Of a DNA stretch of 38,056 bases, positions 18,126-36,703 are shown piece by piece. The notes beneath the pieces are model-generated. The model saw only the letters and a list, made by a program, of their open reading frames with translations. It did no database searches and was not told the origin of the DNA. The stretch comes from an uncultured Bacteroidia bacterium (GTDB lineage Bacteria; Bacteroidota; Bacteroidia; J057; CALAJH01), in the NCBI GenBank assembly GCA_937922655.1, contig CALAJH010000056.1:1-38056 (forward strand). The letters run 5' to 3'. How positions within the stretch are numbered: position 1 is the stretch's first letter; each line of letters opens with the position of its first letter. The position numbers were made by a program, and so were the translations under genes.

Positions 18126-19637
18126 ATGTTTCTTCTTAATTTTTACACCGAAGATTTCGAGTACGTGATGGTGCCGATATGGCTCCTCATCGTCTACACT
18201 TTCGCCGTAATTTTTAGAAGCACGTTTTATAAAAACACGCCTTATTATCCTTATTTTTTGCCCGCACTGACTTTGAAAATCATTGGCGGCGTGGGGGTGG
18301 GTTTGATTTACCAGTACTATTATACATGGGGAGATACGATGCATTACTTCATGTCCGCCTCGCACATTGCCGCCATTCTGATAGAAAACATAGAGGACGG
18401 ATGGCATTTGATTCAATACGGCGGCCAACGTTGGGATATGGAGATGTGGAAGATCGTTTCCAAGTATCGCTACATAGGTTATTTAAACGATCCCCATGCT
18501 TTTTTTGTGGTTAAATTGATGGTTATTCCCGCGCTGCTAACTTTTAATTCGTATTACGCGGCTTCGATTATTGTGTCCGCCGTGTCGTTTGTCGGTATTT
18601 GGGCTTTGTTTAGAATTTATTGCACGATATACCCGGCGCTCATCAAGCAGTTTGCCATCGCTATATTCTACATTCCCTCGGTTTTCTTTTGGGGTTCGGG
18701 GATTTTGAAAGATCCGATAACGATTAGCGCCTTGGGACTCATTGCCTATTCGTTTTTCAGTATATTTATTCTCAGAAAACGCATTTTTTTAAACACTATT
18801 TCAATATTGTTGAGCGGTTTTATTATTTACAAAATTAAATCGTACATTATTCTGAGTTTTATTCCTTTTTTGTTGATATGGATAGGGCTTGAAACGCGCG
18901 ACACTATCCGGCACGGATTGATTCGCTTTATTTTGGCTCCGCTATTGGTGTTTTTTTCGGGCTTTTTCGGTTTTTTGGCAATTCGGGCGCTAGGACAAAG
19001 CGACGCGAGATTTAGCATTGACAATTTTCTGCAGACCGCCGTCGAGGTCAAAAAAGACTTGAACCAAAGTTATTATTATTCCGACGGCGTGGGCAGTTCT
19101 TACGACATCGGCGAATTCGACCCTACCTTGACGGGGATGCTTTCCAAGGCGCCCATCAGCATTTTCACCGCGTTGTTCAGGCCTTTGCCGCACGAGGTGC
19201 GCAACCCCATCATGGCCCTAAGCGCAATCGAAAATTTGTTTGTTTTGCTTTTGGTCGTGTTGATGTTTCGCAAAGTCAACCTCATCGCCATAGGCTTCGC
19301 CGTTGCGCGAAGTCCGTTTTTGATTTTTTCTTTGGGCTATAGCATCAGTTTTGCCTTCATGGTCGGTTTGACTTCGGGTAATTTCGGCAATTTGGTGCGT
19401 TACAAAATTCCCGCCATTCCCTTTTTTATGTGCGCCTTGTACATTTTACACAGCATTTACGTGCGCGATTCCGAATACATGGTCAGGAAAAAATGGGAGA
19501 AACGCCGCCAAATGATGATGTCCACCCACAGGACCGAGCCGGTCGCAGTACCCGTTGTTGCCGCCCCGGAGCCGCCCAAACCGCCGCCCGTTCCCTCGTT
19601 CAGGCAGGGTGAATTTAAACAGTCCGATGTCGCATAG
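18126..19637 (+). CDS. Multi-pass membrane protein, possibly polysaccharide polymerase-like
   Basis: The 503-residue protein has about nine or ten hydrophobic segments, a loop with YTWGDTMHYFMSA early on, and a cytoplasmic-looking Pro-rich C-terminus (AAPEPPKPPPVPSF). I do not recognise a named family with confidence. The overall look, with aromatic-rich loops and a conserved-seeming WGSGILKDP segment, resembles Bacteroidota proteins of exopolysaccharide clusters. The gene is noticeably richer in A+T than its neighbours, especially 18500-18900 (many ATT, TTT and TAT codons), which may reflect membrane codon needs or transfer. It follows the propeller gene by six bases. The nearby MBOAT/SGNH pair makes a polysaccharide role plausible. 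Confidence 0.7.
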   Translation: MFLLNFYTEDFEYVMVPIWLLIVYTFAVIFRSTFYKNTPYYPYFLPALTLKIIGGVGVGLIYQYYYTWGDTMHYFMSASHIAAILIENIEDGWHLIQYGGQRWDMEMWKIVSKYRYIGYLNDPHAFFVVKLMVIPALLTFNSYYAASIIVSAVSFVGIWALFRIYCTIYPALIKQFAIAIFYIPSVFFWGSGILKDPITISALGLIAYSFFSIFILRKRIFLNTISILLSGFIIYKIKSYIILSFIPFLLIWIGLETRDTIRHGLIRFILAPLLVFFSGFFGFLAIRALGQSDARFSIDNFLQTAVEVKKDLNQSYYYSDGVGSSYDIGEFDPTLTGMLSKAPISIFTALFRPLPHEVRNPIMALSAIENLFVLLLVVLMFRKVNLIAIGFAVARSPFLIFSLGYSISFAFMVGLTSGNFGNLVRYKIPAIPFFMCALYILHSIYVRDSEYMVRKKWEKRRQMMMSTHRTEPVAVPVVAAPEPPKPPPVPSFRQGEFKQSDVA

Positions 19638-28095: not shown

Positions 28096-28127
28096 TTTGC
28101 ACATCGGCGCGGATTGTGATAAATTTG
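28096..28127 (+). promoter_or_regulatory. Promoter of the rpsP-rimM operon
   Basis: TTTG at 28096-28099 and TAAATTTG at 28120-28127 are spaced by 20 bases. The box ends 15 bases before ATG 28143, which rules against the upstream GTG at 28116 as the start. Confidence 0.75.
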
Positions 28128-28142
28128 CGTGTTTTTTTAACC

Positions 28143-28604
28143 ATGGCAGTAAAAATACGACTCAGACGGTTGGGGCGCACGCACTTGGCCCATTTCCAGC
28201 TTGTGGTGGCGGACGCACGCAGCCCGCGCGACGGACGCTTTATTGAAATATTGGGCAGCTACGACCCCAACAAAGAGTTTGACAAATACCGCATCGACAA
28301 GGACAAGGCCTTGGCGTGGCTCAAAAACGGCGCGCAACCGACCGAAACGGCGCGTTCCATTTTGTCTCACGAAGGGGTCATGCTTCGCTACCACCTTTAC
28401 CGCTTGGGCAAAAGCGAAGAAGAAATTCAAGCGGCTTACGAAAAGTGGAAGGCGCAGCGAGACGAAAAAATCGAAAAAGCCAAGTTGGCTTTGGACGACC
28501 AAAAACGCAAAGCCGCCGAAGAAAACTTGACACGGGAACGCAACGTGCGCAACAATCGCGCCGAAGCCCTCAAAGCCCAACGTTCCGTTCCCGCCGAAGC
28601 TTAA
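28143..28604 (+). CDS. rpsP: 30S ribosomal protein S16 with long charged C-terminal extension
   Basis: S16 is a small-subunit assembly protein. The start at ATG 28143 (MAVKIRLRRLGR) gives 153 residues, against about 80-90 in Escherichia coli. The first 80 residues are the S16 fold (RDGRFIEILGSYDPNKEF, LKNGAQPTETARSILSHEG). The remaining 70 are a Lys/Glu/Ala/Arg-rich helix. Such an extension is common in Bacteroidota S16. It heads an operon with rimM, five bases downstream, the classic rpsP-rimM pairing. Confidence 0.96.
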   Translation: MAVKIRLRRLGRTHLAHFQLVVADARSPRDGRFIEILGSYDPNKEFDKYRIDKDKALAWLKNGAQPTETARSILSHEGVMLRYHLYRLGKSEEEIQAAYEKWKAQRDEKIEKAKLALDDQKRKAAEENLTRERNVRNNRAEALKAQRSVPAEA

Positions 28605-28608
28605 AGCG

Positions 28609-29139
28609 ATGCTGAACGCGCCCGACGACGAGTATTTTTGCCTCGGTTCCATCGTCCGCGTTCACGGCTTGGACGGTACGCTCAAAGCGACGCTCGAAAC
28701 CGACGAACCCGGGCGTTACACCCAAATAAAAAATATTTGGGTTCGACGCGACAAGGCGTGGGAATCCAAAGACGTGGCGCGAATCCGCTTGGTCGGCGAA
28801 CGCGCCGCGCTGCTCCTTTTTAAAGGCACACCCCACTCCGCAGAAAGCGCCCAACCCTACGTCGGCGCCACGCTCCACCTGCCCCTGTCGTTTTTGCCCC
28901 CGCTTCCCCAAGGAGCGTTTTATTATCACGACGTTATCGGTTTCGAGCTGTGCGACGCACGGCTCGGCGTCGTCGGAAAAGTCATTAAGGTCGTTGAAAA
29001 TCCGGCGCACGACCTTATCGTTTTCGCCCACGGGTATAAAGAACGGTTTTTGCCCGTGGTGGACGAATTTGTTTTGGGCGCCGATATGAACGAGCGCGTC
29101 CTTCGGGTAAAATTGCCCGAAGGACTCCTTGATTTATAA
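28609..29139 (+). CDS. rimM: 16S rRNA processing protein RimM
   Basis: RimM helps mature the 30S head domain by binding S19 and 16S rRNA. The 176-residue protein has the N-terminal RimM barrel (CLGSIVRVHGLDGTLKATLET at about 11-31) and a C-terminal PRC-barrel region (YYHDVIGFELCDA, then DLIVFAHGYKERFLPVVDEFV). It lies five bases after rpsP. In many bacteria trmD and rplS follow; here a sensor gene follows after eleven bases instead. Confidence 0.95.
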   Translation: MLNAPDDEYFCLGSIVRVHGLDGTLKATLETDEPGRYTQIKNIWVRRDKAWESKDVARIRLVGERAALLLFKGTPHSAESAQPYVGATLHLPLSFLPPLPQGAFYYHDVIGFELCDARLGVVGKVIKVVENPAHDLIVFAHGYKERFLPVVDEFVLGADMNERVLRVKLPEGLLDL

Positions 29140-29150
29140 ACCATTCGGAC

Positions 29151-32100
29151 ATGCTCGCGTTTATTCTCTTTGCTTTGTACTGTTCGTCGGTTTTCGCCGT
29201 TTTAACCGAAGAAAGTTTGTCGCCCTTTATTCGTAATTTTTCTCCCGACGAACACTTGGGCGACGCCTCCAACGCTTGCGTGGTGCAAGACAAGCGCGGC
29301 GTGATTTTTGTCGGCAACGCACAAGGCATTCTAGAATTCGACGGCGTGCAGTGGCGTTACCTGCCCACACCCCGAAAGGTCAGCGTCAAATCCTTGGCCT
29401 GCGACCGTTACGGGCGCGTTTTCGTCGGCGCCGAAGACGACGTTTTCGGTTTTCTCAAACCCGACTCCAAAGGCAAACTCGAATTTCACCCGCTCCAAGA
29501 TTTAATTGCGTCGCTCAACGTTGATTTTGACGTTTTTTGGGAGTTGATTCCCACGCAACAGCACCTTTACGCACGCTCGGACAGGTATTTTGTCCGGTTT
29601 AGATTGACCGAGGATCCGAACGCCCCGTTAAAGTTGGACAAGACGTGGAGCGCGACGCCGGGCAATGAGTTCCACGTGAGTTTCAAGGCCGGACAAACGA
29701 TATACGTGCGCATCAAGGGTAAAGGATTGCACAAAATCCGGGGCGACGAGCCGGTTTTGGTACCCGAGGGCGAACTTTTTGCCGACGACCGAATTTATTT
29801 TGTCACCGTGGCGCCGGGCGCGCCCGTCGAAGACCCCGACCCCCCCATTCTCATCGCCACCCGCGAACACGGCTTTTTCATTTACGACCCTTTGGCACGA
29901 GGGGAACGCCTGCGTCCTTATCGCACCGAGGCCGACGAATACCTCAAAACCCACCCCGTTTACCGAAGCGCCCGTTTGCCCACCGGCGATTTCGCCATCG
30001 GAACGCTTTCCGGCGGTTTGCTCATCATCTACCCCAACGGCAAAATACGAAGGGTTATCGACGAGGTCGCGGGACTTCAAAACAACTCCGTACTTGAAGC
30101 CTATCCCGACGCCCAAGGAGGAATCTGGCTCGCGCTCGATTACGGCGTGTCGTACATCGAACCTATGCCGGCGGCTTTCACCAAACAAAGTATTTTTGAC
30201 GGAAAACGTCGACTCGTCAATCAAACCGTCAGGCACAAGGGCAGGCTTTACATTGCGACGACCATCGGCGTTTGCGTCGGCAAATACGAGCCTGCGGGAA
30301 GCATCATGCGCTTTGTCGTTCGCGTCATCCCGGGGTTGAACTCAATATGCCCCGCGCTTTTGTCCGTCGACGACGAATTATGGGTCGGCTCCGACGAGGG
30401 ACTTTTCGTTTACGACGAACTTCGCGGGTTTCGCAACCTCGACCCTACCTTGGACGTCAAAGCCCTTTATCGCCACGGCAATAAAATATATGTCGGGTTG
30501 TTGTCGGGGATGGCGGTGTATGAAAAGCTCGGGGGAACGTGGGTGCGGGTACCGGCGCCGAAACTCAAAGGCGAAATTTATTCTTTGGCGGTGGATACGG
30601 ACGGGAGCATTTGGGCCGGCGCCTTTAATTTCGGCTATTACAAAATCAAACCCTCGGGGCAAGTCGTGCGTTACACCTTTAAACACAAGGTCGGCGGTTG
30701 GTATCGGGTGTTCAACGTCAAAGGAAACCTGCTGTTTGCCACCCCGAAAGGCGTTTACCGCGAAGAGGGGGCGCGTCTTGTACCCCATCCCGACTATACC
30801 TTTTCCGAACAGGTGCACCATATTTTGGAGTACGGTTCCGAAACGACGGTCATTCACTACGAGGCCGACGGGGGAAAGCCCTTCACCCGTAAGTTTGATG
30901 CGAAGGGCAAACTCATGCCCACGTCGTTTTCGCATCTTGACGGATGGATACTGAACCATGCGTTGGTGGAAAAGCAAGGCGTGCTTTGGTTGGCGGGTCC
31001 CAAAGGATTGGTGCGTTACGAACCGACGGATTCCATCTCGCCCACGCCCTTTCCGCCCATGTTGCGCAAATTGACGGCAAAACGCGACAGCACGCTTTTT
31101 TGGGGGGCGTTTGCCAACGAGTTCGGCGGCATTGTTTCCGTACCTTCCGGCAACTTTCGGTTTCACATCCCTTACGCACTCAACAGTATTCGCGTCGAGT
31201 TTGGCGTGCCGGTATATCGCCAGTCGGGGCCGCTTCATTTTCAGTTTTATTTGGAAAAATTTGACGAACACCCGCCGCTCGAATGGTCTTCCGTGCCTTT
31301 TAAAGAGTACACCAACCTTCCCGAAGGACGTTACACGCTTTGGGTGACGGTCAAGGACGAGCAGGGGAGCGTCGGGCAAAAGGCGACGTTAAGTTTTGAA
31401 GTCGCCGCGCCGTGGAACCGCACCGTTGGTTTTTATTCTTTGGCGGTCGTTGCGTTGCTAACCCTTATGCTGTTGGCTTACAAATATTTTTCCGCGCCCA
31501 TACAACAAAGAAACAAACTGCTCGACGAGGACAACCGTCATTTGAGCGTGGATTTGTCCGCAAAAAGCGTCGAACTTCGACGTTTGGACGAGGTCGTGCA
31601 ACAAAAAAACACGGAAATCGCACGATTGGCCGAGGCTCAAGTTCGTATCGAGGAGCGCAATCAAGAACTCGCGCAACGTTTGGCGGAGCTCGAGGCCGTT
31701 ATGTTGAATTGGACACGGTTTGCGGGCTTGTTGAGGGATTTTGCCACGCCCGATTTGACGACCGTCAAGCGCCGGTTGCCTTTTGTTTTTGCGCATTATC
31801 ATTCGGCGTCGCCGCTCGAAAACCATTTTTGGACGAGTGCGGAACATGCGAACGGGGTCGTTTTGGTTGTGGGCCGTTGCCACGGCGAGCATGCGCCCCC
31901 GGTACTTTCGGGTCTGTTCGCCGTTTTGACTTTAAGACAGATTTTTTCCCGCAAGCCCGAAAAAATCGACGACGTGCTTGCCGCTTTCTCCGAAACGATG
32001 GAAAAACACGCTTTTCGTTTTTCGATTACGGTCTGCGGGGTCGAGCGAGAAAACATAACCGTTTACGGTTCTCCGGCGTTTTTGGTTCGCAACGGCAAAG

Positions 32101-32321
32101 TCTTGGAGGTTTTGGGCAAAGCCGCCGTCTATTCCGGGGACAAGGTCTATCTTTTTTCCGATATCGACGTCGCCCCGCAGGGTATGGAATCTTTGGACGA
32201 ACACCCGTTCGTCGAACATCCGTTCCGTTTCGACGAACTTTACACCCTTCACGGCGTGCATGCCGAGACTTTGATTGTCGGTTTCGAGTGGGTTTCGACG
32301 AAGCCGGGCAACGGTGTTTAG
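29151..32321 (+). CDS. Reg_prop/Y_Y_Y sensor protein with degenerate SpoIIE (PP2C)-like domain
   Basis: The 1056-residue protein has a signal sequence (MLAFILFALYCSSVFA), a periplasmic sensor of reg_prop-type propeller repeats (about 40-640, e.g. DKRGVIFVGNAQGILEFDG, DTDGSIWAGAF), a Y_Y_Y domain (about 680-750), one membrane helix (about 757-780) and a coiled coil (about 785-845). The C-terminal domain (about 860-1050) aligns with SpoIIE-type PP2C phosphatases. The expected SGDFYW is LENHFW (near 888), and the expected DCTGHG is RCHGEH (near 908), so two metal-binding Asp positions are lost; the later SGDKVYLFSD keeps its Asp. Activity as a phosphatase is therefore doubtful, and it may bind a partner such as an anti-sigma factor antagonist. 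It starts eleven bases after rimM and is probably co-transcribed. Confidence 0.85.
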   Translation: MLAFILFALYCSSVFAVLTEESLSPFIRNFSPDEHLGDASNACVVQDKRGVIFVGNAQGILEFDGVQWRYLPTPRKVSVKSLACDRYGRVFVGAEDDVFGFLKPDSKGKLEFHPLQDLIASLNVDFDVFWELIPTQQHLYARSDRYFVRFRLTEDPNAPLKLDKTWSATPGNEFHVSFKAGQTIYVRIKGKGLHKIRGDEPVLVPEGELFADDRIYFVTVAPGAPVEDPDPPILIATREHGFFIYDPLARGERLRPYRTEADEYLKTHPVYRSARLPTGDFAIGTLSGGLLIIYPNGKIRRVIDEVAGLQNNSVLEAYPDAQGGIWLALDYGVSYIEPMPAAFTKQSIFDGKRRLVNQTVRHKGRLYIATTIGVCVGKYEPAGSIMRFVVRVIPGLNSICPALLSVDDELWVGSDEGLFVYDELRGFRNLDPTLDVKALYRHGNKIYVGLLSGMAVYEKLGGTWVRVPAPKLKGEIYSLAVDTDGSIWAGAFNFGYYKIKPSGQVVRYTFKHKVGGWYRVFNVKGNLLFATPKGVYREEGARLVPHPDYTFSEQVHHILEYGSETTVIHYEADGGKPFTRKFDAKGKLMPTSFSHLDGWILNHALVEKQGVLWLAGPKGLVRYEPTDSISPTPFPPMLRKLTAKRDSTLFWGAFANEFGGIVSVPSGNFRFHIPYALNSIRVEFGVPVYRQSGPLHFQFYLEKFDEHPPLEWSSVPFKEYTNLPEGRYTLWVTVKDEQGSVGQKATLSFEVAAPWNRTVGFYSLAVVALLTLMLLAYKYFSAPIQQRNKLLDEDNRHLSVDLSAKSVELRRLDEVVQQKNTEIARLAEAQVRIEERNQELAQRLAELEAVMLNWTRFAGLLRDFATPDLTTVKRRLPFVFAHYHSASPLENHFWTSAEHANGVVLVVGRCHGEHAPPVLSGLFAVLTLRQIFSRKPEKIDDVLAAFSETMEKHAFRFSITVCGVERENITVYGSPAFLVRNGKVLEVLGKAAVYSGDKVYLFSDIDVAPQGMESLDEHPFVEHPFRFDELYTLHGVHAETLIVGFEWVSTKPGNGV

Positions 32322-36058: not shown

Positions 36059-36703
36059 GTGTTCTGGCGCTGCTTGCATTGCGAAACCCATAACGCCCCC
36101 GAACGTTCGCGCTGCCTCATCTGCGGCGCCGAACGACTCTATACCGCAAGCGAAATAGGGCTGTTGCACGGCGTGGATTTCAACGGTCTTTCGGGAACGC
36201 AATGGTGGAACAACCTACCCAAAACCTACAAAACCCATTTTAGAAAACTTTTTGCCTTCAACGAACCGGACACGGAAACGCTTTTGCGCATACGGTTTAT
36301 GACGCGCTTGGATTTGTCACGCAAGGCCGTCGAAAGCGCCGAACCCTTGGCCGCCCTCCCCTACCTCGAACGTCTAAACCTCAACAGAACCCGCGTCCAA
36401 ACGCTTGTCCCCCTATCCAAACTTCGATATTTGACCGAATTGCGGCTCGACGGCACGCCGATAGAAAGTTTGTCGGCGCTCAAAGGTTTGACGAACTTGA
36501 AAAAACTATACGTTCGGGATTGTCCGGCGCTCGGCGCCGACGAAGTCGTCGTTTTTCGCGCCGCACGGCCCGATTGCCGTGTCCACGCCGACAAACCTAC
36601 GGACAAAACCTCCGCACGCAAATCGGCAGCCGAAGCGTCTTCGCTTGCCAAAACCGAAGACAAGCTTAAACGTTCAATTTTTTCGATTTTCAAACGCAAA
36701 TGA
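36059..36703 (+). CDS. RanBP2-type zinc finger plus leucine-rich-repeat protein
   Basis: The frame starts with GTG at 36059, one base after the M20 stop codon, and gives 214 residues without a signal peptide. The N-terminus matches the RanBP2-type zinc finger pattern W-x-C-x2-C-x3-N-x6-C-x2-C exactly: W3, C5, C8, N12, C19 and C22. Three or four leucine-rich repeats follow (about 80-155), for example LERLNLNRTRVQTLVPLSKL and LTELRLDGTPIESLSALKGL. A charged Lys/Ser/Ala-rich tail ends the protein. The role is unknown; protein or RNA binding is inferred from the two modules. The GTG start is chosen because the zinc finger begins at once. Confidence 0.8.
   Translation: MFWRCLHCETHNAPERSRCLICGAERLYTASEIGLLHGVDFNGLSGTQWWNNLPKTYKTHFRKLFAFNEPDTETLLRIRFMTRLDLSRKAVESAEPLAALPYLERLNLNRTRVQTLVPLSKLRYLTELRLDGTPIESLSALKGLTNLKKLYVRDCPALGADEVVVFRAARPDCRVHADKPTDKTSARKSAAEASSLAKTEDKLKRSIFSIFKRK

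Follow-up and report, generated by a model that had tools for sequence, protein, structure and literature searches.

A gene of an uncultured Bacteroidia bacterium raises the question of whether a membrane sensor whose C-terminal domain keeps the outline of a SpoIIE-type phosphatase, with altered metal-binding motifs, still has a signaling output. The gene lies on contig CALAJH010000056.1 in a stretch of 38,056 nucleotides, the whole of which is referred to here as the window. An initial annotation proposed that the domain is a catalytically inactive phosphatase, coupled to a large propeller sensor, that would signal by binding rather than by catalysis.

Architecture of the sensor and identity of its C-terminal domain

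According to the list of open reading frames and the translation, the gene occupies positions 29151 to 32321 of the plus strand (as do all of its features given below), begins with ATG, and has 1,056 codons, encoding a 1,056-residue sensor with a pseudo-SpoIIE output. Inspection of the sequence by eye suggested a putative signal peptide at residues 1 to 16 (MLAFILFALYCSSVFA; 29151 to 29198) and a putative transmembrane helix at residues ~762 to 782 (SLAVVALLTLMLLAYKYF; 31434 to 31496). Between them lie a Reg_prop beta-propeller region (residues ~20 to 620; 29208 to 31010), detected above the cutoff in a Pfam scan of the protein (PF07494; 7e-12), and a Y_Y_Y-like domain (residues ~640 to 757; 31068 to 31421), for which the Pfam match was subthreshold (PF07495; 1.5e-4, 22 bits versus a gathering cutoff of 26.6) and in which invariant columns, including Y720, N722, P754, and W755, are shared with homologues in the alignment. 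A PDB sequence search identified the propeller as a relative of the solved propeller sensors 4a2l and 3v9f (3.7e-14); these belong to BT-type hybrid two-component sensors, which are alike in the propeller but have a histidine kinase as their output. The membrane helix is followed by a coiled-coil linker (residues ~785 to 862; 31503 to 31736), suggested by weak matches to coiled-coil families and a long helix in the models, and by the degenerate SpoIIE/PP2C domain (residues ~863 to 1046; 31737 to 32288), assigned with a paralogue HMM, tblastn, an AlphaFold model, and PDB matches. No receiver (REC) domain was found in the window protein by the Pfam scan; the propeller sensor is present instead.

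The sensor gene starts ~12 bases after rimM of an rpsP-rimM pair at window positions 28116 to 29139. The pair lacks trmD, which is found on another contig (G000 C63). The last part of rimM overlaps a strong terminator-like hairpin of 12 pairs (29098 to 29125), which lies 25 bases ahead of the start codon of the sensor gene, and because of this hairpin it is uncertain whether the sensor is freely cotranscribed with rimM. Conserved synteny after rimM was considered and rejected, since different genes follow rimM in the 15 relatives compared, and the gene at this position likewise varies in the order. Elsewhere in the window, a small protein with a RanBP-type zinc ribbon and leucine-rich repeats was recognized by Pfam (36059 to 36703), and a 503-residue open reading frame with no Pfam match (18126 to 19637) follows an SBBP beta-propeller protein.

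The Pfam SpoIIE model (PF07228), which detects 27 other SpoIIE domains in the same genome, gave no match to the C-terminal domain at E values up to 10, and a PDB sequence search with the domain returned chance matches only. An HMM built from 22 SpoIIE domains, all from the window's own genome, matched the domain sequence alone at ~1e-7, covering residues 867 to 952 and the GD.VYLFSD block at residues 991 to 1004. When the domain was compared by tblastn with 395 genomes of the class, the matches were weak (best, 2.6e-5), and the best of them (19 of the 19 retrieved) all scored as SpoIIE domains. AlphaFold2 with a 57-sequence alignment produced a model of the domain with a pLDDT of 91.2 and a pTM of 0.83, containing a PP2C beta-sandwich with switch helices. 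The PDB fold matches of this alignment-dependent model were PP2C domains, with those of SiaA and RsbU type and P. aeruginosa RssB ranking highest; SiaA-PP2C of P. aeruginosa (6k4e) was the best (Z = 19.8 over 204 residues), and further matches were Rv1364c (Z = 17.6), P. aeruginosa RssB (3f79; Z = 16.3), and SpoIIE (5ucg; Z = 15.7). SiaA-PP2C is an active phosphatase, likewise part of a membrane-attached sensor phosphatase, although its sensor is of another kind than the window propeller. From the single sequence, AlphaFold reached a pLDDT of only 41, and the predicted fold therefore leans on the alignment of relatives. Together, the sequence matches and the model indicate that the C-terminal domain is a very degenerate SpoIIE/PP2C relative.

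Active-site residues of the degenerate domain

The two metal ions of B. subtilis SpoIIE have different ligands: D628, D746, and D795 coordinate Mn1, whereas Mn2 is bound by D610, D628, and the carbonyl of G629 (PMC3517971; PMC5468089). The window domain was aligned with 56 canonical relatives, and the positions of D610, D628, D746, and D795 were found to correspond to H892, R909, D1004, and A1038, leaving one of the four metal-binding aspartates; A1038 was assigned to D795 by hand, because the aligner leaves D795 gapped and pairs E1039 with D796. The alignment thus bore out the initial annotation, which had read LENHFW and GRCHGEH as altered forms of the two key motifs of a SpoIIE-type outline and had found an aspartate kept only in the FSD block. 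E890-N891-H892 (31818 to 31826) replaces the S-G-D that carries D610, with ENH(F/W) standing where the relatives have SGD(F/Y). GRCHGEH (31872 to 31892) replaces (A/V)DCTGHG, placing R909 at D628 and C910 at G629, and some of the TGHG glycines are missing. The FSD block (32154 to 32162) retains D1004, equivalent to D746, but is followed by isoleucine, giving FSD(I) versus FSD(G) in the relatives. H1037-A1038-E1039 (32259 to 32267) replaces (I/T)DD (D795/D796) in alignments read manually.

The degeneration goes further than had been described, in that DGMD has become FRFS, TDD has become HAE, two core stretches of ~25 and ~20 amino acids are absent, and of the 55 columns that 85% or more of the 56 relatives conserve, only 14 are kept. 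No clear acidic replacement for D628 was found in the alignment; E1039 occupies the position of D796. The last beta-strand, ETLIVGF, is still recognizable, and the frame reaches the normal SpoIIE C terminus. A frameshift artifact was rejected as the cause of the lost motifs, which are absent from all other frames as well. Since three of the four metal-binding aspartates and DGMD are gone and an arginine stands at the position of the bridging aspartate, the proposed loss of catalysis is well supported at the sequence level, and the window domain is very likely CATALYTICALLY dead.

Origin of the gene and constraint on its output domain

In a tree of propeller sequences, the partner of the window protein is L051, a Reg_prop-SpoIIE protein of canonical type encoded in the same genome (support, 86/86; not a starred fork). 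Reg_prop/Y_Y_Y/SpoIIE sensor phosphatases such as L051 have the same domain order, namely, propeller, Y_Y_Y, membrane helix, coiled coil, and SpoIIE, but keep all catalytic motifs, against one of four metal-binding aspartates in the window copy. Canonical relatives are 39 to 52% identical to L051 in the phosphatase and 30 to 38% identical in the sensor. For the window protein this pattern is reversed, with 22% identity in the phosphatase and 33% in the sensor; therefore, the constraint has changed specifically at the phosphatase end. Over the whole protein, the branch of the window protein in the tree is ~1.9 times longer than that of its paralogue (1.72 versus 0.91). No orthologue was found with the whole protein in 60 relatives, GTDB contigs, plasmids, and viral contigs, nor with the domain in the window's own genome, 21 relatives of the order, ~395 genomes of the class, and ~395 genomes of the phylum. 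The initial annotation had named intact orthologues beside a single decayed copy as the pattern that would speak against it. In part this is what was seen, as all propeller relatives with a readable SpoIIE domain, including the nearest paralogue L051, have intact motifs and the window copy alone has lost them; true orthologues were not found.

It is possible, though we consider it the less probable course, that the gene is a decaying paralogue whose phosphatase end came to be unselected after duplication and is now vestigial, leaving a gene without output or one that is being lost. The canonical motifs of the nearest homologues, the empty orthologue searches across order, class, and phylum, the long branch, and the deletions inside the domain are all consistent with decay, as is the hydrophobic pattern (44 of 59 hydrophobic columns kept), which is no better than that of a shuffled, realigned sequence (0.72 ± 0.05). 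However, simulated neutral drift starting from the L051 domain yielded a mean of 4.7 to 7.2 stops at 60 to 35% identity, with a probability of no stop of 0.013 or less, while the window domain has no stop or frameshift over ~190 codons at ~22% identity to L051. In codon usage the domain is gene-like, and the sensor half is intact. A frame free of stops and ordinary codon usage speak against simple decay over a long period.

Two other explanations would retain a folded domain. If only the propeller and membrane segment were useful, for instance in ligand sequestration, the C-terminal domain would serve as a folded spacer or dimerizer; conservation of the sensor half at the level of other pairs (33%) beside a diverged output agrees with this, but the frame kept to the normal C terminus of the SpoIIE fold, with its recognizable ETLIVGF strand, does not, and we regard such a role as very improbable. 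A rearranged metal site of H892, D1004, and E1039, possibly with H911, H914, or C910, that kept or gained some activity or held a structural metal is likewise improbable. The single zinc of PHLPP2 provides a precedent (PMC12002173), the domain is rich in histidine (5.7%; the median for 82 canonical domains is 1.8%), and both altered motifs contain His, Cys, and Glu. Against this, arginine occupies the bridging position, D795 is lost, PP2C catalysis requires a two-metal center, and one-metal PHLPP2 and TAB1 are reported to be inactive (PMC12002173). On balance we favor, as a plausible reading held with modest confidence, a retained role in binding. The explanation that best accounts for the whole, partner binding included, and to which we give slightly better than even credence, is that the window gene is a diverged duplicate of a Bacteroidota Reg_prop/Y_Y_Y/SpoIIE membrane sensor phosphatase, kept as a coding pseudo-phosphatase whose PP2C output no longer binds metal or catalyzes.

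Possible signaling by binding and other degenerate SpoIIE domains

If the pseudo-phosphatase is kept for binding, the outer propeller would sense a ligand, and the signal would run through the Y_Y_Y domain, the membrane helix, and the coiled coil to reposition the switch helices of a presumably dimeric pseudo-PP2C domain. The moved helices may then alter the binding of a partner. Candidates are a substrate of SpoIIE, whether of the STAS type or another, an active SpoIIE paralogue joined as a heterodimer, and an unrelated protein, as with RssB. By analogy, the sensor probably signals, if at all, via partner binding as RssB does and not by dephosphorylation. E. coli RssB is a regulated adaptor with a PP2C fold that lacks the active-site residues, and it resembles the window protein in having lost the catalytic residues of a SpoIIE/PP2C fold, with ~1 Asp left, and in being regulated through an attached sensor or receiver (PMC7226468; PMC5468089); other pseudo-PP2C proteins, e.g., Tab1, have been named alongside it (PMC5468089). 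RssB differs in being a soluble REC protein and the ClpXP adaptor of sigma-S, whereas the window protein is a membrane propeller sensor; the two are likened here by analogy. PHLPP2 and TAB1 also combine a PP2C fold and lost catalysis with proposed binding or scaffold roles (PMC12002173), but they are eukaryotic, with other domains and another evolutionary origin.

Degenerate SpoIIE domains were also seen elsewhere. Two are in the window's own genome: L057 (G000 C1:285428-285922) has D628 and D795 both replaced by E, and L058 (G000 C30:160279-160791) has D628 replaced by S, D746 replaced by E, and D795 lost, with one Asp left. Their carriers, as read from sequence, are response regulators with REC and a GAF-like region, an RssB-like architecture. 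In a relative, a degenerate REC-GAF-SpoIIE gene (L217:1942-5514; G004 C197:13614) with D610N, D746S, and D795E sits next after rimM and is directly followed by a canonical REC-SpoIIE paralogue; it was rejected as a synteny match to the window gene since its REC-GAF architecture differs, and the shared position is apparently a coincidence. Among the weaker-scoring SpoIIE domains inspected, one in a relative has lost metal-binding aspartates (E/G/E; L160; G007 C29:1163-1732), and another carries D746N alone (L189:2337-2906; G004 C168:31036-31605).

The initial annotation called the design one not commonly described. Signaling by a dead PP2C domain is already known, because RssB is an adaptor without active-site residues, and since RssB is an established pseudo-PP2C binder and two further degenerate SpoIIE domains occur in the same genome, the design is less novel than was claimed. 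What stands is that the exact combination of a Reg_prop propeller with a pseudo-SpoIIE domain was unreported in the literature searched, from which subscription journals were mostly absent. Only tentatively can it be suggested, and we rather doubt, that Bacteroidota transmembrane propeller sensors with dead SpoIIE domains are a recurrent, selected class and that SpoIIE families repeatedly give rise to binding-only outputs, e.g., dominant-negative partners of active paralogues; this view counts the window protein together with the two REC-GAF-pseudo-SpoIIE proteins encoded in its own genome and a further two from relatives.

If the window protein is under selection, a transmembrane propeller sensor would act through the principle of RssB, a dead phosphatase used as a regulated binder, and in Bacteroidota with 13 to 28 SpoIIE domains, counting these domains would give too high a number of phosphatases. 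Moreover, the window protein and L051 may serve as a natural pair of dead and live outputs on related sensors, in which binding by SpoIIE domains could be separated from catalysis.
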